Made by a program: the position numbers and the translations under genes. A stretch of 45,246 nt of DNA, from positions 1 to 45,246 of the forward strand of contig JALWHT010000130.1 in NCBI GenBank assembly GCA_026983515.1. The letters run 5' to 3'. The stretch's first letter is position 1; every line of letters starts with the position of its first letter. The stretch is from Sulfurovum sp. Its GTDB lineage: Bacteria; Campylobacterota; Campylobacteria; Campylobacterales; Sulfurovaceae. Under the pieces are notes generated by a model, which did no database searches, was not told the DNA's origin, and saw only the letters and a program-made list of their open reading frames with translations. Positions 16,681-24,987 of this stretch are shown piece by piece.

Positions 16681-18570
16681 TTATTTTAATGAACCTTCGT
16701 AGTATTCAATCGGTTCAGGTTTTCCAAGGTAATACCCCTGTGCATATTCAAAGCCAATAGCTTTGATATGCCTGTATATACGCTCGTCGGAAACAAACTC
16801 TGCAACAAGTACATATCCGAAACTATCGGCAAGTACTTTAATGGAATGTAACAGTTTTTCCGTACGCTCAGGATTTTCCAGCAATTCCCGGATAAGACTG
16901 CCGTCTACCTTCAACACATCGATATCAAGATGCAGCACATGGTTATAATTGGCAAAGCCGCTCCCAAAATCATCAATAGCAATTTGAGACCCATATCTTT
17001 TCAACTGTTTAAAAATTCTCTGTACTCGTGTATAGTCTTTAATTTCATGCTCTTCCAAAATCTCAAAGCTAAGCCTGTGCGCAAAGCCGGCATGTTTTTT
17101 CAGTTCAGTCGTGATCATTGTCATCACTTCATCATTGTAAAGGTCATTCAGGTCAAGGTTAACAGATACATGTAGATTTGGATACGCCTGAAGGGTTTTA
17201 AAAACCCCTTTCAGCACCTGTTTGCTCAGTTTCAGATACTGGCTTGTCCCCTTGATAATATCCATAAACTGTCCCGGTGCGATCAAGACATCCGGATTTT
17301 CCGGATCAATTAGCCTGACAAGCGCCTCATAGCGAACTGTTTTTCCGGTTTTGGTATCAACCACAGGCTGATACAGGCACAACGGTTTTTCTGCCTCAAG
17401 CATGGTACGCACCTGATCAAGCGTAAAATAGCCGTTCTCTTCTTGATCAGCACCAATAAAACGCAGTCCGTTCTTTCCGAGATTTTTGATTTCCAGCATC
17501 CGTTCATCGAGCATTCTCTCAGCCTTTTGCAGTGAGTACATTCCGTTGGGCGTTTCCAATACACTCATGGATACCGTTAAGGTAAAGACTTCATCATCAA
17601 ACAGATATTTTTTTCGTTTCAGGACACAAAACAATGCTTTGGAAACTGTTTCAATATTCCCTTCTTTTGGGATGATCACCAAAAATTCTGTACCACCGCT
17701 TCTGACAAGTTTGGCACCCTTTGGCAGTTTTTCTTTAATAGTAGAAACAAACGATTTAAGTACACTGTCACCGGCGTCGTATCCAAAACGTGCATTGACC
17801 GATTTGAATTCATCAATATCAATCATGATAAAATCATACCTGTCAAGTCTATTGGATTCAAAAAAGGTATTAAGAAAATATTTGGAATACGCACCGGTCA
17901 GCGGGTCATGATAAAGCTGTTTTTGAAGACGGTTGTAACTGAGCATCAGGTATCCCATGAAAAGAATACTTAAAAGCAAAAAGCCCTGCATCATTTTGGC
18001 AATACGTATAAGCGGTGCATTGAAACTGCTTAAGCTCTGACTATAGGCTTTGGAGAGATCGATCACCATCAGCATCTGTGTGTCGCCTTGACTGCGTATC
18101 GGATAGAGCAGAGAAAGCCATATCTCTTCCATACTTTTCTTCTCTCTGATAATTTTCGGCTTTCCTGTACGATACACCTCATCAAAAGTAGGATTGTTTG
18201 GGAAGAACAGGGTGTTATAAGCTACCGGATCTTCCAAAGAGGCATCAAGCACGAAACGGTAGTGTTCCTGTTTATCTTTCGTCAACAGAAATATATATTG
18301 AAATTCTTTAGTAAGAAACGCATGCAGCACCCGGTTCAATTCTTCTCGTTTTTCGGAATCATTCTGTAATGTATCTAGTAATGTTTTCCCTTTCGGCTCC
18401 ATTTTCATATAACGTTCTATCTTTCCGGCAAATTCACGCGCTTTCTCTACTTCAAGTGCTTTAAGTTTTTGGGTATTTTTAGAAATAGTGTACTGTAGGT
18501 AAAAGACAAACAGCAGCATTGCTCCGATAATCACAAGAATATAAATACTGGTACGGTTGCTCTGTTTCAT
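16681..18570 (-). CDS. Membrane GGDEF/EAL c-di-GMP protein, probable phosphodiesterase
   Basis: 629 residues. TM helix about 8-28, a periplasmic sensor domain of about 160 residues, a second TM near 190-212, then GGDEF (about 215-375) and EAL (about 385-625) domains. The GGDEF active site is altered: SGGTEF replaces GGDEF, FKSVNA replaces FKxVND, and no RxxD inhibitory site is seen, so cyclase activity is unlikely. The EAL half keeps its key residues: EALVR, the Asn in VNLDLNDL, FEILEE, IDDFGSG, KVDG, AEFV and QGYYLGKP. It should therefore hydrolyse c-di-GMP, perhaps with the GGTEF domain as a GTP-sensing regulator. The ATG overlaps the preceding small periplasmic gene by 4 nt. Confidence 0.88.
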   Translation of the reverse strand: MKQSNRTSIYILVIIGAMLLFVFYLQYTISKNTQKLKALEVEKAREFAGKIERYMKMEPKGKTLLDTLQNDSEKREELNRVLHAFLTKEFQYIFLLTKDKQEHYRFVLDASLEDPVAYNTLFFPNNPTFDEVYRTGKPKIIREKKSMEEIWLSLLYPIRSQGDTQMLMVIDLSKAYSQSLSSFNAPLIRIAKMMQGFLLLSILFMGYLMLSYNRLQKQLYHDPLTGAYSKYFLNTFFESNRLDRYDFIMIDIDEFKSVNARFGYDAGDSVLKSFVSTIKEKLPKGAKLVRSGGTEFLVIIPKEGNIETVSKALFCVLKRKKYLFDDEVFTLTVSMSVLETPNGMYSLQKAERMLDERMLEIKNLGKNGLRFIGADQEENGYFTLDQVRTMLEAEKPLCLYQPVVDTKTGKTVRYEALVRLIDPENPDVLIAPGQFMDIIKGTSQYLKLSKQVLKGVFKTLQAYPNLHVSVNLDLNDLYNDEVMTMITTELKKHAGFAHRLSFEILEEHEIKDYTRVQRIFKQLKRYGSQIAIDDFGSGFANYNHVLHLDIDVLKVDGSLIRELLENPERTEKLLHSIKVLADSFGYVLVAEFVSDERIYRHIKAIGFEYAQGYYLGKPEPIEYYEGSLK

Positions 18571-19022
18571 AATGATGTTACCGCATAGTTTGAAAATGCA
18601 TCCGGAAGCCTGATATGATGTGCTTTCAGTCTCGGTAAGAGAAAGAGAAGCTGCGGACGTCCTTTTCGCCAGTAAAGTGCCCCCACAACATCCTTGTTTG
18701 CCTCAAGCAGGCTGTATGTTGTCGCAAAAAGGATTGCTGAAGCGTGAGGATGGGTCTGCTTCCAGCTTTGATATTGCCTTAATATGGATGGATCCGTTAC
18801 CAGCACAAAATCTGCTTCTCCAATATCCCTGGCAAATACAATATTTTCTGCCTTGGCAAAGATATCACGATAGACCGGATCGTCCACATAGACACGTACT
18901 GTCTGTTTTTGGGGGACAAGTATTGAAAAAAGTTTATTATATACTTTCAAAGTACTCTTAATATCCATGGCATACAGGAGCCCATATGCACTAAGAAACA
19001 AAAAGAGTATCAATCGTTTCAA
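18567..19022 (-). CDS. Small periplasmic protein, YfiR-like
   Basis: 151 residues. Signal peptide MKRLILFLFLSAYGLLYA, then a mature domain of about 130 residues. The latter half (AILFATTYSLL, then VGALYWRKGRPQLLFLLPRL, then KAHHIRLPDAFSNYA) follows the pattern of YfiR/DUF4154 proteins: a beta hairpin with G-x-I-x-F, a hydrophobic N-like strand and a closing helix. YfiR is the periplasmic inhibitor of the diguanylate cyclase YfiN. The match is by pattern only. The start is TTG 19022, which overlaps the receptor stop as TTGA with GGAG upstream; the next ATG would delete the signal peptide. The 3' end overlaps the GGDEF/EAL start by ATGA. Confidence 0.6.
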   Translation of the reverse strand: MKRLILFLFLSAYGLLYAMDIKSTLKVYNKLFSILVPQKQTVRVYVDDPVYRDIFAKAENIVFARDIGEADFVLVTDPSILRQYQSWKQTHPHASAILFATTYSLLEANKDVVGALYWRKGRPQLLFLLPRLKAHHIRLPDAFSNYAVTSL

Positions 19023-20929
19023 AACAGATACTCCAGTTCCATGCTGATCCGTCTGTCTATTGGGGAAACCTCCAGTGGAGGTAACAGTGTACCTGTGGCG
19101 GGGTCAACCCTGTACAGGTCTGTTTCTTTTGCCTTGTCAAGCAGGTTTTCACCCTTGAGTGTCAGTGTAAGGTTTTCATGGACGTTCCAGCTAATAGAAC
19201 TTGTCCAATCAAAATAGTTTTTGTCATCAATATTGTTCTGATGCCACACCACACCATTATAAAAATCAAATTGCCCATAGGTATTTGAGAACGTGAGATA
19301 TCCACTGTAATCCTCCAACCGATCCAAGGTAAAAATATCTTTGTAGTTGGCATAGTAGAGCTGCAGATCCATTCTGTTCTCAAGATCAAACCGGTAGTTA
19401 TACTGGAAAACGGTTGTAAAATATTTGGTATTGCCGTCACCGCCGTTCTGTATCAGTCCATCTTTGTCCTGTAGCAGGAAGAGCATCACATCTGCACTGT
19501 AGTGCTCCCCTTCAAATCCAAGCTCCTGCGTCACTCCCCATGTTTTTTGTACCGTATGAGGATCTTTATGTAGGCTAAATGTTGAAATATTCAGTGTGGT
19601 AGAGAAAGGATCCAATGCGAACATAGAACGGTAAAGATAAGCTTTGTAACGCCACTTTTCACCACTGTAAATGTAGCCCAGCCGTATTTGTAAAAGATCA
19701 TCATCGTTTACCCTTGGACTGTTACGGTGAATACGGCTGTATTCTATACCAACATTCAAAAGTTTATTTTTTGAAAGGTGGTATTGATCCTGAAAAAATA
19801 CGGACCATACATCCTCGCGATCAAATATCAGCGGTACGTTACCTACACGTTGTTCCTGAATATAATCAAGCTTTTTGACACGCCCTTTCATACCGGTTGC
19901 AATCCGATGCTTCCCGCATTGTTGAGTATAGGTTAATTCACCGCTATAGGTACTGTTTTTGCTTTTTCCATAAAAATTATTTCCAAACAGTGCTCCACTA
20001 TACAACAATGGGGTGTCATCAGACATTTGGACATCTACTTTCAACATATCATAGGCTAACTGCAACTGCCAGTGTGGCGTAAACATATAACGGTAATCCA
20101 AATGAACATTTTGATAATCAATTTCTGATACTTCAGGCGTTGCATCCATACTGAGGCCTGCAAACGCATCTGTGTTTTTTTGCATCAACTGAATATGAAA
20201 AACCTGCGTTTCGGTTTTGGCATATCCCATAAGTTGAAGACGCTCAAAATCACGTTTGAGCGGATTATCCGTACCATTATCGATACGTTCACGCTTCTCC
20301 TGCGTTCTGGAAACATTCAGCATGTAAGATACACCATTCTCTTTGCCGCCATAATTGACATCCTGTACATTGTATCCCCGGCTTCCCGCAAGAACATCAA
20401 GTGAAGTACCACTGTCCTGTTCAGGTTCTTTCGAGTAAATAAAGATGGTCATATATGCCGGCTCGACCGAAGTTTCAAGAGAGGGTGTCATATAGTAGAA
20501 CTCTATATGATCTGCAAAATTGATGTCCATGTCACCATACAGTACCATTCCGCTGCCAAGCCATCCCTGTGTGATTTCCACACCGTCAATAAACAGACGG
20601 ATAAAGTTGCTTCGGTAGGGTTCAAATGCGCCGGAAGTAAGAGGGTCAGGTAAACCAAAACGGTTTTCATGGTAATAGATGAATGGTGTCATTTTCAATA
20701 CATCTTTCAATGTTTTGGCATGCATCCGTTCGAGTCTGTCCCGAGTAAAAAGTATAAGATGCCCCTTGTTTTCGTCAATGGTTCTCTGGCTCAGGTCATT
20801 TTTATCTTTATACTCTTTCAGCAACGTATCCATAGATTCGCCATGAAGCATCTGTATACACAAAAACCCCACTGCAAGTATCCCCAGAAAAAACTGTTTA
20901 CCCTGCCGATTCTGCCGTATGTCACGCAT
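19019..20929 (-). CDS. TonB-dependent receptor-like outer-membrane protein
   Basis: 636 residues. A signal sequence (about 12-31) is followed by a plug domain (about 50-170) with TLKDVLKMTPFIYY and NFIRLFIDGVEI, the hallmarks of the TonB-receptor plug, and then a beta barrel ending in RRISMELEYLF with terminal Phe. The plug reads more like the short plugs of signalling or degenerate receptors; no clear TonB box is visible near the mature N-terminus. Substrate unknown. It is the first gene of a three-gene coupled set with a YfiR-like protein and a GGDEF/EAL protein, suggesting it senses rather than only imports. The ribosome site is AAGGGTAAGG. Confidence 0.8.
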   Translation of the reverse strand: MRDIRQNRQGKQFFLGILAVGFLCIQMLHGESMDTLLKEYKDKNDLSQRTIDENKGHLILFTRDRLERMHAKTLKDVLKMTPFIYYHENRFGLPDPLTSGAFEPYRSNFIRLFIDGVEITQGWLGSGMVLYGDMDINFADHIEFYYMTPSLETSVEPAYMTIFIYSKEPEQDSGTSLDVLAGSRGYNVQDVNYGGKENGVSYMLNVSRTQEKRERIDNGTDNPLKRDFERLQLMGYAKTETQVFHIQLMQKNTDAFAGLSMDATPEVSEIDYQNVHLDYRYMFTPHWQLQLAYDMLKVDVQMSDDTPLLYSGALFGNNFYGKSKNSTYSGELTYTQQCGKHRIATGMKGRVKKLDYIQEQRVGNVPLIFDREDVWSVFFQDQYHLSKNKLLNVGIEYSRIHRNSPRVNDDDLLQIRLGYIYSGEKWRYKAYLYRSMFALDPFSTTLNISTFSLHKDPHTVQKTWGVTQELGFEGEHYSADVMLFLLQDKDGLIQNGGDGNTKYFTTVFQYNYRFDLENRMDLQLYYANYKDIFTLDRLEDYSGYLTFSNTYGQFDFYNGVVWHQNNIDDKNYFDWTSSISWNVHENLTLTLKGENLLDKAKETDLYRVDPATGTLLPPLEVSPIDRRISMELEYLF

Positions 20930-20989
20930 CCTTACCCTTTACAGACACTCTAATAGCATATCTGTCATAATACTTTTATATTATTTCAA

Positions 20990-21001
20990 TTATAATTATA
21001 A
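20990..21001. promoter_or_regulatory. AT-rich palindrome in the receptor/acyltransferase divergent gap
   Basis: TTATAATTATAA is fully self-complementary and resembles the core of Fur/PerR boxes. It lies 61 bases upstream of the receptor gene, where a Fur site would be expected for an iron-uptake receptor. The whole 214-bp gap is very AT-rich, so chance is possible. TATATA at 21115-21120 may be the -10 for the plus-strand gene. Confidence 0.3.
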
Positions 21002-21143
21002 AGCAACAATAATAACAAAATAATACACTAATAGTCATAAATATCCCCATAATTTTGCACATCCAAAGTGACAAAATAACCCACCTGCTTCACGTGGATA
21101 CATAGGAGCATTTCTATATACCAAATACAGATTAGGAGTAATC

Positions 21144-21908
21144 ATGCTTGATCATAAAGCCTACACATTCATGACCCAAACCTACAAACTGGTACTGGCA
21201 ACCAGACCAGAACATATTGATGCAGTCAAAGCACTGCGAAAAGAAGTGCTGCTGGAGAAATACCGCAACTTCGGAAGCATTGAAGATGAGGAACATTTTG
21301 CCTGGGATGATAGTGATGCCCAGGCATTCATCTATCTGCTTCAACACAAAAAGAGTGGTCGGTACGTCGGTACTATCCGCGTCTTTTTTATTAACGATGC
21401 AACGCCGCTAAAAGAGATGCCCATGGAACACTACAGCCATGCACCACGCATTGCAAAACTGAAAACGGTACTGCCTGTATGTGAAATTTCACGATTTGCT
21501 CTCTCTGCCGATCTTCCCAAAGAACCAGAACACAGTGCCCAATGGGTCAGGATACATCTCTCTTTGCTGTTGATGATTGGTACCAGAATTACTGTACAGA
21601 TCTACCCTTTTAAAATGATCTTTGCCATTATGGAGTATTCTCTGGCGCGTCTGCTGCGATGGCAGCATGCCAATTTTGAACAGATTGGGAAAAGTGTAGA
21701 CTACTATGGTATGAGAACACCTTTTGCGATTGAACCGCACAAGCTGATTGAAGAGACAAAAGAGACGGAAGCATTAAGCTGTTATTACCTGAAACAGTTT
21801 TCACAACCGGGAGGAAGCCTTGACCAATTCCTTGCCCAGTGCCCCTACATTGATGCAGAGATGCTCAATCTTGATGCCTGCGTACCCGATAGATCACCGC
21901 GTACATAA
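21144..21908 (+). CDS. FeeM/LuxI-like N-acyltransferase (GNAT fold)
   Basis: 254 residues. Features of the autoinducer synthase/N-acyl amino acid synthase group: an N-terminal LATRPEHIDAVKALRKEVL helix-strand unit, a variable loop, YVGTIRVFF (central strand), and EISRFALS, equivalent to the E-x-SRF motif of LuxI/FeeM and exosortase-associated acyltransferases. It would transfer a fatty acyl group from ACP to an amine such as an amino acid or homoserine lactone. No LuxR-type regulator or exosortase gene is in the window. ATG 21144 has AGGAG 6 nt upstream. The last 44 nt overlap the convergent RND gene. Confidence 0.68.
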   Translation: MLDHKAYTFMTQTYKLVLATRPEHIDAVKALRKEVLLEKYRNFGSIEDEEHFAWDDSDAQAFIYLLQHKKSGRYVGTIRVFFINDATPLKEMPMEHYSHAPRIAKLKTVLPVCEISRFALSADLPKEPEHSAQWVRIHLSLLLMIGTRITVQIYPFKMIFAIMEYSLARLLRWQHANFEQIGKSVDYYGMRTPFAIEPHKLIEETKETEALSCYYLKQFSQPGGSLDQFLAQCPYIDAEMLNLDACVPDRSPRT

Positions 21909-24900
21909 GCGGTACATAGAAAAGATTCAGTACCGTTGCCCAGGCGATACCGAAACCGAGAGAAACCGCCATTGGCTGTAAAATGAGTGCCTGCCCGCTG
22001 GCAAAGAACATAAGAGAAGAGAGCCCCAGTACGGTTGTTACCGATGTAAGAATGATCGGCCTCAGACGCATACCCGCTTTGTGGGATATTTCTGCGTAAT
22101 CCTTACTGTCCTTGATAAAGTCCAGCATGATCAGTCCATCATTGACTACCACCCCTGCAAGCCCGATGATGCCCATAATACCAGGAAGCGTCATATGGAT
22201 GCCCATCAGTTTCGTACCTACCAGTGCCCCGAGTACCGACAGCGGAATAGTCGACAGAATGATCAGCGGCAGTATGGCCGAATTAAACATCCATACCAGC
22301 GTCAGGAAAATAAGAAAGACAGCGATTACAGCCGCTTCGGCCATCTCTTTTTTGATCTGACGATTCTCTTTCTCTTCCCCTTTGATAATAACCTTGACAC
22401 CAGATTTTTCAAGTGTGTCAAGCATCGGGCGTATATGATCCATTACTTCCGAAGGGGTAATATGGTGCTTGTCGACGCGGGCAAAGAGTGAACGTACCTT
22501 TTGTCCATCTTCTTTAAATATCTTGACAAAACGCTTTTGGTAGTAAAAGTCACAAATGTCTTTGAGCCTCACCATCTGCTGCCCGTCAGGTGTCGTGAGC
22601 CGAAAGTCTCCAAGCGCGCCCTGCTTTTTCTTGTAGGCATCTTCGATACGGATACGTATCAGTCCCTTGGCATTGAACATCTTGCCGTACTCCGCTTTCA
22701 AAAAGGCACCGCGGAGAACATTGACCACATAGCTCTCACTAAAGCCAAGCTGCTGCCCGTATTCGTTCACACGCAGCTTCAGCTCCCGCTCCCCCTCGTT
22801 GGCATTGTCGGAGATGTCTTCCACTCCTTTTATATGGGAAAGGGCCTTTTCGACACTGTGCAGGGCTGAGAGCATCTTCTTTTCATCATCCGCACTAAAA
22901 CCTATCTCAATATCATGACTGACAATACCTGCCTGCTGTACATAAATGTTAAACTCTTCATAGAGCGGCTTTTCATTGATTTTGATCTTCCGGAACTTGT
23001 CCATTACTTCTTTTTGTACCTCTTTGACGATCTCCTGGGCTTTACGGCGGCGTATCATGTCACTGTCATCATATTCAAGTGAAAAGATGGGGTTGATGTA
23101 GCGGTCAAAGAAGTTTTCAGGTGCTTTTTCATGCAGGTTGATGAAGATTTGAAAAAGGTTGTCCCCCACTTCAAAACTCGCATCTGGATTGAACTTGAAT
23201 CCAATAACTGATGTGACGGAATCAACATCCTCTTTCTTCAGACGTTTAAGCAACGCTTTTTCAATCTGTGTGACATATTTCTCTGTTTCATGCAGGTCAT
23301 GGTTGATGTCCACTTTGCCGTTCAGATAGATCTGCTGTGCATCAAATTCCGGAAAGAGTTGAAACTTCATGACCTTCATCATGCCTATCGTTGCCACCAC
23401 AATAAAGAGTACAAGGAGTATCAATGAACGCCACTTGTGTATCAACAGTTTTTCAAGAAAACGGCTATAGGCAGCCACAAAGCGCTTCCATCCGCCCTCA
23501 TGGTTTTGCATGGTTTTCGCATTGCCGATACTGAAAAACTCTTTTGCGTGTAACGGAAGAAAATAAAATGCCTCAAAGAGAGAAGAGAGCAGCAAAATAG
23601 AGATCATCACCGGCAACACCTGCATAAACATCCCCATCTTCCCGCTCATGATCAGCAACGGCAAAAATGCAAAGACGGTTGTGAGTGTCGCCGTCAATAC
23701 AGCGGGGAACATCTCTACCGCACCGTCAATAGCTGCCTCTTTGGGAGACTTGCCCATTTCCAGATGCCGGTAGATGTTCTCAGCCACAACAATAGCTTCA
23801 TCAACCAGCATCCCAAGGGCAATAAGCGCCCCCAGCATCGTAAGCATATTAAGGCTGTAACCGATGGCATCTGCCGCAATGAGCGTAATGAAAAAAGAGG
23901 TTGGAATACCAATGGCAACGACCCAGGCAATGCGTGCATTGACCGAAAGGAAGAGTGCAGCAAAGACAAGAATAAGTCCAAAAAGAATGTTCGAAGAGAC
24001 AAGATTCAGACGGTTTTTGACCCACACGGAAGTATCGGTATAGGCTTCAAATGTAATATCTTTATATTTTTTCGAATAAGCTTTAAGCACCTGCCGTACC
24101 TGCTTACTCAAAGCAATGGCATTGCCTTCTTTGGTTTTGTTGATATTTAAAGAGATATTAGGTTTGCCGTTGAAGTGGGAAATCTGTTTGGGATCGCCAA
24201 GACCGATGCGTACCGTGGCGATATCTTTGAGTCGGACATGTTTGCCGTTGATACCCAGCAAAATATCATCAATGGCTTTGGCTGACTTCTCTCCGTTGAT
24301 CGTAGAGATGTAAAGGTGATCGCCGGCGGCATCAATGGTACCAGCGGGAAAAATGGAAGCGATCTGACTGATTGCGTTATAAACTGCTGTTTTGGAGAGT
24401 CCGTAGGCATCAAGTTTCTTTTGGTCGAGGGTAACGAGTACCTCTTCATCCGCATCACCCCGTATGACAATGCCACTGAGATCTTTGATGAGCGCAAGCT
24501 CGCTTTTGAGCTTGTCCGCCACATCGAGCAGCCTCTCTTTGGGTACATCACCGGAGATGGCCACCAGCAGCAGCGGATAGTCATGCACCACTACTTTCGC
24601 AACAGGTTCATCCATATCTGAAGGCAGGTCACGTCTGGTGTTGGCAATAATGTCTTTGACATCGGAGAGTACCAGCTGCTTATCATTGCCCGGTTTGATA
24701 TCTGCCTCTATCGTAAACATACCGTTTTGAATGGTGGTATAGATCGTATCGATCTCGGAGAGACTTTTAAGTTCGTCCTCTATCTGTTCAACCACCATCT
24801 TGTCAAGCACATCTGCACTCGCACCCACATATCCGCCGGTAATGGATATTTCATCCAGTGTCGAAGCGGGAAAGATCTCTTTGGCAATATTCTGATAGGC

Positions 24901-24987
24901 AAACACTGCCATGATCAGCATAAAGACCATAAGAATATGATTGAGTATCGGACGTTCGACTGCGAACTTTACAAATCTCCGTATCAT
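21865..24987 (-). CDS. RND-family efflux transporter
   Basis: 1040 residues with the full AcrB-type layout: TM1 (about 13-32), a large periplasmic loop, a six-helix block with GALIALGMLVDEAIVVAEN near residue 385-400 (family proton-relay motif, here with one Asp and a Glu where AcrB has DD), a second periplasmic loop rich in Lys/Glu, and a second helix block ending near the C-terminus. The nearest families are the HAE and the lone RND permeases with PFxxLDxI-like starts (FPASTLDEISITGGYVGAS). No membrane-fusion or outer-membrane partner is adjacent. It starts 1 nt after the ftsL-like stop, so it is co-transcribed with rsmH and ftsL. Confidence 0.88.
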   Translation of the reverse strand: MIRRFVKFAVERPILNHILMVFMLIMAVFAYQNIAKEIFPASTLDEISITGGYVGASADVLDKMVVEQIEDELKSLSEIDTIYTTIQNGMFTIEADIKPGNDKQLVLSDVKDIIANTRRDLPSDMDEPVAKVVVHDYPLLLVAISGDVPKERLLDVADKLKSELALIKDLSGIVIRGDADEEVLVTLDQKKLDAYGLSKTAVYNAISQIASIFPAGTIDAAGDHLYISTINGEKSAKAIDDILLGINGKHVRLKDIATVRIGLGDPKQISHFNGKPNISLNINKTKEGNAIALSKQVRQVLKAYSKKYKDITFEAYTDTSVWVKNRLNLVSSNILFGLILVFAALFLSVNARIAWVVAIGIPTSFFITLIAADAIGYSLNMLTMLGALIALGMLVDEAIVVAENIYRHLEMGKSPKEAAIDGAVEMFPAVLTATLTTVFAFLPLLIMSGKMGMFMQVLPVMISILLLSSLFEAFYFLPLHAKEFFSIGNAKTMQNHEGGWKRFVAAYSRFLEKLLIHKWRSLILLVLFIVVATIGMMKVMKFQLFPEFDAQQIYLNGKVDINHDLHETEKYVTQIEKALLKRLKKEDVDSVTSVIGFKFNPDASFEVGDNLFQIFINLHEKAPENFFDRYINPIFSLEYDDSDMIRRRKAQEIVKEVQKEVMDKFRKIKINEKPLYEEFNIYVQQAGIVSHDIEIGFSADDEKKMLSALHSVEKALSHIKGVEDISDNANEGERELKLRVNEYGQQLGFSESYVVNVLRGAFLKAEYGKMFNAKGLIRIRIEDAYKKKQGALGDFRLTTPDGQQMVRLKDICDFYYQKRFVKIFKEDGQKVRSLFARVDKHHITPSEVMDHIRPMLDTLEKSGVKVIIKGEEKENRQIKKEMAEAAVIAVFLIFLTLVWMFNSAILPLIILSTIPLSVLGALVGTKLMGIHMTLPGIMGIIGLAGVVVNDGLIMLDFIKDSKDYAEISHKAGMRLRPIILTSVTTVLGLSSLMFFASGQALILQPMAVSLGFGIAWATVLNLFYVPLMYAVIYRVRRHQD

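Follow-up and report, generated by a model that had tools for sequence, protein, structure and literature searches.

By what route could an event at the outer membrane reach a cyclic di-GMP (c-di-GMP) enzyme on the far side of the periplasm? The question is raised by three consecutive genes in a contig of Sulfurovum sp. (JALWHT010000130.1, assembly GCA_026983515.1), the genome of which comprises 1.85 Mb in 207 contigs and is of the Sulfurovum type within the Campylobacterota. The window analysed here is the whole stretch of 45,246 nucleotides (nt) from positions 1 to 45,246 of that contig. All three genes lie on the reverse strand and encode, in order of transcription, an outer-membrane protein of the TonB-receptor superfamily (TB; 19019..20929, 636 amino acids (aa)), a small secreted protein (SM; 18567..19022, 151 aa, with a TTG start) and a membrane protein with Cache-like, GGDEF and EAL domains (the third gene, or enzyme; 16681..18570, 629 aa), the last being a predicted c-di-GMP phosphodiesterase. 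The trio is probably an outer-membrane-to-cytoplasm relay that serves, in the Sulfurovum-type clade, as a surface-sensing c-di-GMP phosphodiesterase, with a ligand that is possibly made by a FeeM-like synthase encoded next to TB. An earlier sequence-only reading of the locus had described three genes overlapping by 4 nt at each junction, and the open reading frames and both junctions were confirmed: a TTGA shared by the TB stop and the SM start (19019..19022, reverse strand), which couples the two translationally, and an ATGA shared by the SM stop and the enzyme start (18567..18570, reverse strand).

The arrangement extends well beyond the window. A single-sequence search recovered SM homologues from 37 of 100 relatives, and a profile search detected the SM family in 105 of the 299 genomes of the order, covering 27 of 81 genera. 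Scanning the collection for the conserved SM motif yielded 133 loci that were confirmed, and 80 of them were kept; nearly all are from Campylobacterota, with a few labelled Aquificota or others. Among the carriers is the culturable Sulfurimonas indica NW8N, which has a trio (L158). Gene neighbours were counted for the 75 readable SM genes on genome contigs, several of the incomplete loci in this set ending at a contig edge. TB is located directly upstream of SM in 72 of these loci and a homologous signalling gene directly downstream in 68, with both partners on the same strand as SM in 66. The overlaps also recur, as TTGA at 53 of the 72 homologous TB/SM junctions and as [AGT]TGA at 48 of the 68 homologous SM/enzyme junctions. 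Because the neighbours are kept to this extent and the overlaps recur, the trio is not a chance grouping, and its conservation in other genomes, which the sequence-only reading had put forward as a check, is borne out. Outside Sulfurovum no constant neighbours were seen around the trio (precorrin-8X methylmutase, a lysine exporter and others were found). At L050 and at L121, a locus labelled Hydrogenimonas, SM is followed by an open reading frame of 153–160 aa that resembles a haloacid dehalogenase (HAD)-like phosphatase by eye, and not by a signalling enzyme.

Co-divergence of the trio members was also evaluated. A mirror tree of the whole set, in which SM and its partners correlated with r of 0.82–0.86, was discarded because species history confounds it, and a within-genome paralogue test and a partial Mantel test took its place. 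In genomes with more than one trio, TB and the sensor domain of the enzyme differ between paralogues in step with SM (r 0.70–0.90) in four of five pairs, a pattern that species history does not explain since each comparison lies within one genome.

In the window the third gene encodes a GGDEF domain (17470..17913; Pfam E value 6e-19) and an EAL domain (16717..17415; 1.6e-48), preceded by a periplasmic domain at about residues 28–185 (18016..18489, all on the reverse strand). The AlphaFold2 model of this periplasmic domain has a Cache-like fold with a predicted local distance difference test score (pLDDT) of 85, and its best Foldseek matches are the sensor domains of WalK, KinD, TlpQ and Tlp3. 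Across loci the third gene mostly encodes a GGDEF-EAL protein of 620–640 aa. The same periplasmic domain is also found on a GGDEF-only protein of 380–390 aa (L142, L149, L153, L060, L066 and L068) and on a histidine kinase (L138, L157 and L166), and at L112 and L054 the third gene is a kinase whose N-terminal part differs. A signal relay would be expected to exchange its outputs while receptor, SM and periplasmic domain stay constant, and the occurrence of one periplasmic domain on different outputs in the same operon position favours a modular relay from the outer to the inner membrane.

The GGDEF motif of the window enzyme reads SGGTEF (GGTEF at 17683–17697), and all of the EAL catalytic residues are present (Q, the E of EALVR, N, E/E, DD, K, E and Q). 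The sequence-only reading had noted the degraded GGDEF site beside an intact EAL domain and proposed that a phosphodiesterase stands in place of a cyclase; both statements hold for the window and its clade but not for the system as a whole. In full-length enzymes of the Sulfurovum type the third position of the motif is T, A, S or G in 18 of 18, and these 18 form one clade (support 0.976), whereas 47 of 49 other enzymes of the trio family carry GGEEF; nearly every enzyme has its EAL residues intact. The degraded site of the Sulfurovum-type clade is probably a derived state, and the output in this clade is very probably phosphodiesterase only. Elsewhere cyclase and kinase outputs occur, and these, together with the FeeM-like gene of the Sulfurovum module, had been overlooked.

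TB from the window has a signal peptide, plug and barrel, and on its own matches the Pfam Plug domain weakly (E value 0.015, below the cut-off). Plug was matched by 24 of 30 members of the TB family, the best at 9e-11, and the barrel by 6 of 30, and the TB family profile matches Cir and BtuB. The homologue matches and the reach of the profile make placement of TB in the TonB-receptor superfamily secure, which agrees with the earlier description of the first gene as TonB-receptor-like. Inspection of 62 aligned sequences of the TB family found no canonical TonB box. Where the box would be expected, the mature N terminus carries the conserved segment LLxxYxxxxDLSxxTKxExxG (residues 33–56; 20762..20833, reverse strand), in which L37, T50 and G56 are invariant and L36, L46 and S47 nearly so. 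The single canonical receptor found in the window genome has a normal TonB box, with ALGTILVES at its N terminus, and TonB is encoded twice in this genome. The missing box of TB, in a genome whose canonical receptor has one, suggests its use for sensing rather than active import, and its conserved N-terminal segment is a natural candidate for the contact site of SM.

SM has a Sec signal peptide, identified by inspection. The window protein matched no Pfam or NCBIfam family, and a sequence search of the PDB with SM returned nothing; DUF4154 (PF13689) matched neither the window SM nor any of 73 homologues, and no match to it was found in the window genome. The AlphaFold2 model of SM is of high quality scores (pLDDT 91; predicted template modelling score (pTM) 0.82), and in Foldseek comparisons it matches YfiR structures with a probability of 0.80–0.99 and a template modelling (TM) score of 0.54–0.61, the values for YfiR entry 4zhu being 0.97–0.99 and 0.56–0.60. 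Structure prediction of the 151-residue protein against YfiR, as had been suggested for this locus, thus gives a match with a TM-score of up to 0.60 (4zhu). Profile comparison by hhalign with a DUF4154 profile from Campylobacterota, which itself retrieves YfiR from the PDB, gave 85% probability and an E value of 6.5e-6 over the C-terminal 71 columns only, compared to 0.3% and 1.6% for two unrelated control profiles. These predictions suggest that SM is YfiR-like in fold, with common descent unproven; the similarity is moderate and is shared with folds resembling half of a periplasmic binding protein (PBP). The YfiR-like character proposed earlier therefore stands as a predicted fold but not as membership of DUF4154 by Pfam, and the two features on which the sequence-only reading had staked itself, a YfiR-like SM and neighbouring genes in related genomes, were both found. 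Conservation among SM homologues is strong in the patch GAxxWxKGRP, of which W118 and R122 are invariant, as judged from an alignment predating the motif-based search; in the window it reads GALYWRKGR (residues 114–122; 18657..18683, reverse strand).

A relay assembled from these parts would work as follows. TB would bind a ligand outside the cell, changing its plug or its N-terminal segment, and SM, by binding to TB or on release from it, would relay this change through the periplasm. The target of SM would be the Cache domain in the inner-membrane protein, and that protein would in turn switch its cytoplasmic EAL domain and so alter c-di-GMP breakdown; ligand binding by TB, the contacts of SM with both partners, and the control of the EAL domain and its sign are the steps that we infer. 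In the Sulfurovum-type clade, with its cyclase site presumably dead, phosphodiesterase activity would be the only output, and elsewhere the same front end would act on a histidine kinase, a cyclase or a protein with both cyclase and phosphodiesterase activity. The product of the divergent FeeM-like gene may make the ligand in Sulfurovum.

This gene (21144..21908, forward strand) encodes an acyltransferase similar to FeeM and exosort_acyl proteins and is transcribed divergently from TB. Its product matches TIGR03694 with an E value of 2.7e-24 (86 bits, under the cut-off of 112) and Pfam FeeM with an E value of 4e-5 (score 23.8, under the cut-off of 27). A PDB sequence search with the FeeM-like profile gave nothing significant, so the assignment rests on these two matches, which make the protein a relative of the FeeM/TIGR03694 N-acyl amino acid synthases and not a certified member. 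Residues R32, D58, R79, E114 and R117 (the last two being the E and R of a CEISR motif) are invariant in 14 FeeM-like sequences, and we take them to resemble the catalytic-type residues of LuxI/FeeM autoinducer synthases. The gene occurs in 27 of 78 Sulfurovum genomes, 26 of which have SM (Fisher p 3e-13); in none of the 78 was it seen away from the trio, and it adjoins TB wherever contigs allow. Seven Sulfurovum genomes have SM only: in two the trio lies at a contig end (L090 and L103), in one it is decayed, and four have other or distant trio types. In the decayed trio (L062, genome G022) SM contains stops and TB is in pieces, the enzyme gene remaining largely open; this genome has no FeeM-like gene. 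The FeeM-like gene keeps its place next to the trio although the neighbours on either side vary, with a resistance-nodulation-division (RND) pump or others on the left and polyprenyl synthetase/hemA, YebC or others on the right, and in one genome with two trio copies (L097 and L104) each copy has the gene next to it. Over 12 loci the gene and TB diverge in parallel, more than the control gene ispA accounts for (partial Mantel r 0.74, p 0.0001).

Several observations weigh against the relay as outlined, or against the place of the synthase in it. One of the five paralogue pairs, consisting of two closely related copies, lacks co-divergence. For SM, Foldseek ranks a substrate-binding protein first (3lkv, E value 7e-4, versus 0.03 for YfiR), for which reason SM may itself bind the ligand. 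Genome G004 has a FeeM-like gene, adjoining TB, and no SM was found there; L105 is a Sulfurovum-type trio with a degraded GGDEF site in a genome from which the FeeM-like gene is entirely absent; and neither the trios outside Sulfurovum nor the other trio types within it have the gene. Inheritance as a block would by itself also yield the co-occurrence and co-divergence of the FeeM-like gene and the trio.

The chance that the FeeM-like gene is a mere neighbour unrelated to the relay, with the trio sensing an environmental molecule everywhere, is put only a little short of even: the trio is widespread without the gene, even one Sulfurovum-type trio lacks it, and linkage can be passively inherited. 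Against this stand its constant association with the trio in the 78 genomes, its divergent position kept while both outer flanks vary, its occurrence next to each of two trio copies in a single genome and its absence where the trio has decayed. Block inheritance explains part of the linkage, and a functional link accounts for the retention of the block. A more ambitious proposal, which is tentative and rather doubtful, is that the four Sulfurovum genes form a self-signalling circuit in which an acylated amino acid made by the FeeM-like protein leaves the cell and is perceived by a non-transporting TB, which would act through SM on the phosphodiesterase. If so, population or surface density would set c-di-GMP without a LuxR-type regulator.

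A second alternative, which we consider unlikely, concerns SM: it would be a reduced periplasmic ligand-binding protein, TB admitting the ligand and SM presenting it to the Cache domain in the manner of LuxP-LuxQ or NspS-MbaA, so that the system would be a PBP-type sensor and SM not a YfiR-type repressor. The best Foldseek matches of SM, ahead of YfiR, are substrate-binding proteins, with 6k1y, 3lft and a one-domain Rhodothermus protein in addition to 3lkv; the GAxxWxKGRP patch with its invariant W and R could be a binding site, and the genome has two TonB genes. However, SM, at ~130 mature residues, has the length of a single lobe and lacks another with which to close a cleft, YfiR structures fit it at least equally by TM-score (0.60 versus 0.57), its profile similarity is to DUF4154, and TB lacks the canonical TonB box for active import. 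It is highly improbable that TB is an ordinary TonB-dependent transporter of a vitamin or siderophore that shares its operon with a c-di-GMP enzyme by chance, since, despite its plug-and-barrel superfamily and the presence of TonB, the operon holds no transport genes, TB has no TonB box, and a co-conserved SM with swapped signalling outputs would be unexpected for a transporter.

The relay proposed here resembles in outline its closest known system, YfiBNR/TpbB of Pseudomonas aeruginosa, likewise an operon of an outer-membrane protein, a small periplasmic alpha-beta protein and an inner-membrane GGDEF-type enzyme controlling c-di-GMP. The parallel to YfiB-YfiR-YfiN drawn by the sequence-only reading is retained to this extent, with a TonB-receptor-like barrel replacing the OmpA-type lipoprotein YfiB. 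Beyond that replacement, it also fails in the other two members: SM falls outside Pfam DUF4154, and the enzyme sensor is a Cache-like domain. The window output is also an EAL domain with a dead GGDEF site (GGTEF) where YfiN has an active diguanylate cyclase motif.

True DUF4154 genes of Campylobacterota are found directly beside TonB receptors at L073, L074, L075, L078, L080, L081, L084 and L088; at L078, L081 and L088 the pair is also beside a membrane signalling protein, of the kinase type where readable, and at L076 and L085 DUF4154 is fused to a long coiled-coil protein (at least 640 aa) with a TonB receptor adjoining. Like the trio, L078, L081 and L088 group a receptor, a small periplasmic protein and a signalling enzyme (kinase or cyclase), but they use a PF13689 protein, which has no Pfam overlap with the SM family, and ordinary TonB receptors. 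Because DUF4154 genes adjoin TonB receptors and kinases or cyclases in the phylum, relays of a receptor and a YfiR-type protein may be a wider kind.

In NspS-MbaA and LuxP-LuxQ a periplasmic protein acts on a kinase or c-di-GMP enzyme at its PAS/Cache-like sensor; unlike the trio, these systems use a two-lobe binding protein and have no coupled outer-membrane receptor gene. Cell-surface signalling by a TonB receptor, an anti-sigma factor and an extracytoplasmic function (ECF) sigma factor relies on a receptor with an N-terminal signalling domain and has a sigma-factor output. The trio shares with it a TonB-type receptor as the outer sensor but uses a third protein and c-di-GMP. The FeeM-like gene of the window belongs to the same synthase superfamily as FeeM and the N-acyl amino acid synthases Nas343 and Nas354, which carry a PilZ domain, a link to c-di-GMP that has been noted (PMC4897644). 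Unlike Nas343/Nas354, the window gene has no PilZ fusion and no exosortase association, and is linked to a membrane phosphodiesterase relay.

The sequence-only reading knew of no description of this exact trio, and none was found of it or of the DUF4154-TonB receptor-enzyme arrangement in the literature searched, which comprised openly licensed papers only and makes this absence weak evidence. To our knowledge, few cases exist of signals crossing two membranes to c-di-GMP enzymes, and none involves a TonB-type barrel. About a third of the genomes sampled from the order contain the trio, whose single front end is combined with exchangeable outputs, and it therefore offers many natural experiments. 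The physiological role of N-acyl amino acids has been described as unclear (PMC4897644). The link to the FeeM-like synthase, if true, would supply a receptor and an output with which the role of these compounds could be tested, and would open a route similar to quorum sensing to Sulfurovum of vents and sediments.

An exosortase link of the FeeM-like gene was considered and rejected, as exosortase-like genes occur in 41 of 78 genomes with no visible association with it, and none was found in the window genome. Short exosortase-like proteins of ~165 aa are present in about half of the Sulfurovum genomes and are unrelated to the FeeM-like gene. The AT-rich intergenic stretch that separates TB from the FeeM-like gene (20930..21143) contains a promoter-like match on the reverse strand at 21018–20989, a consensus match only, the scanned stretch as a whole containing 19 such sites versus 12.3 expected. 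On its other side the FeeM-like gene converges with, and overlaps by 44 nt, an RND efflux permease gene (window positions 21865–24987); this permease, a possible exporter, adjoins the FeeM-like gene in most, but not all, Sulfurovum loci.

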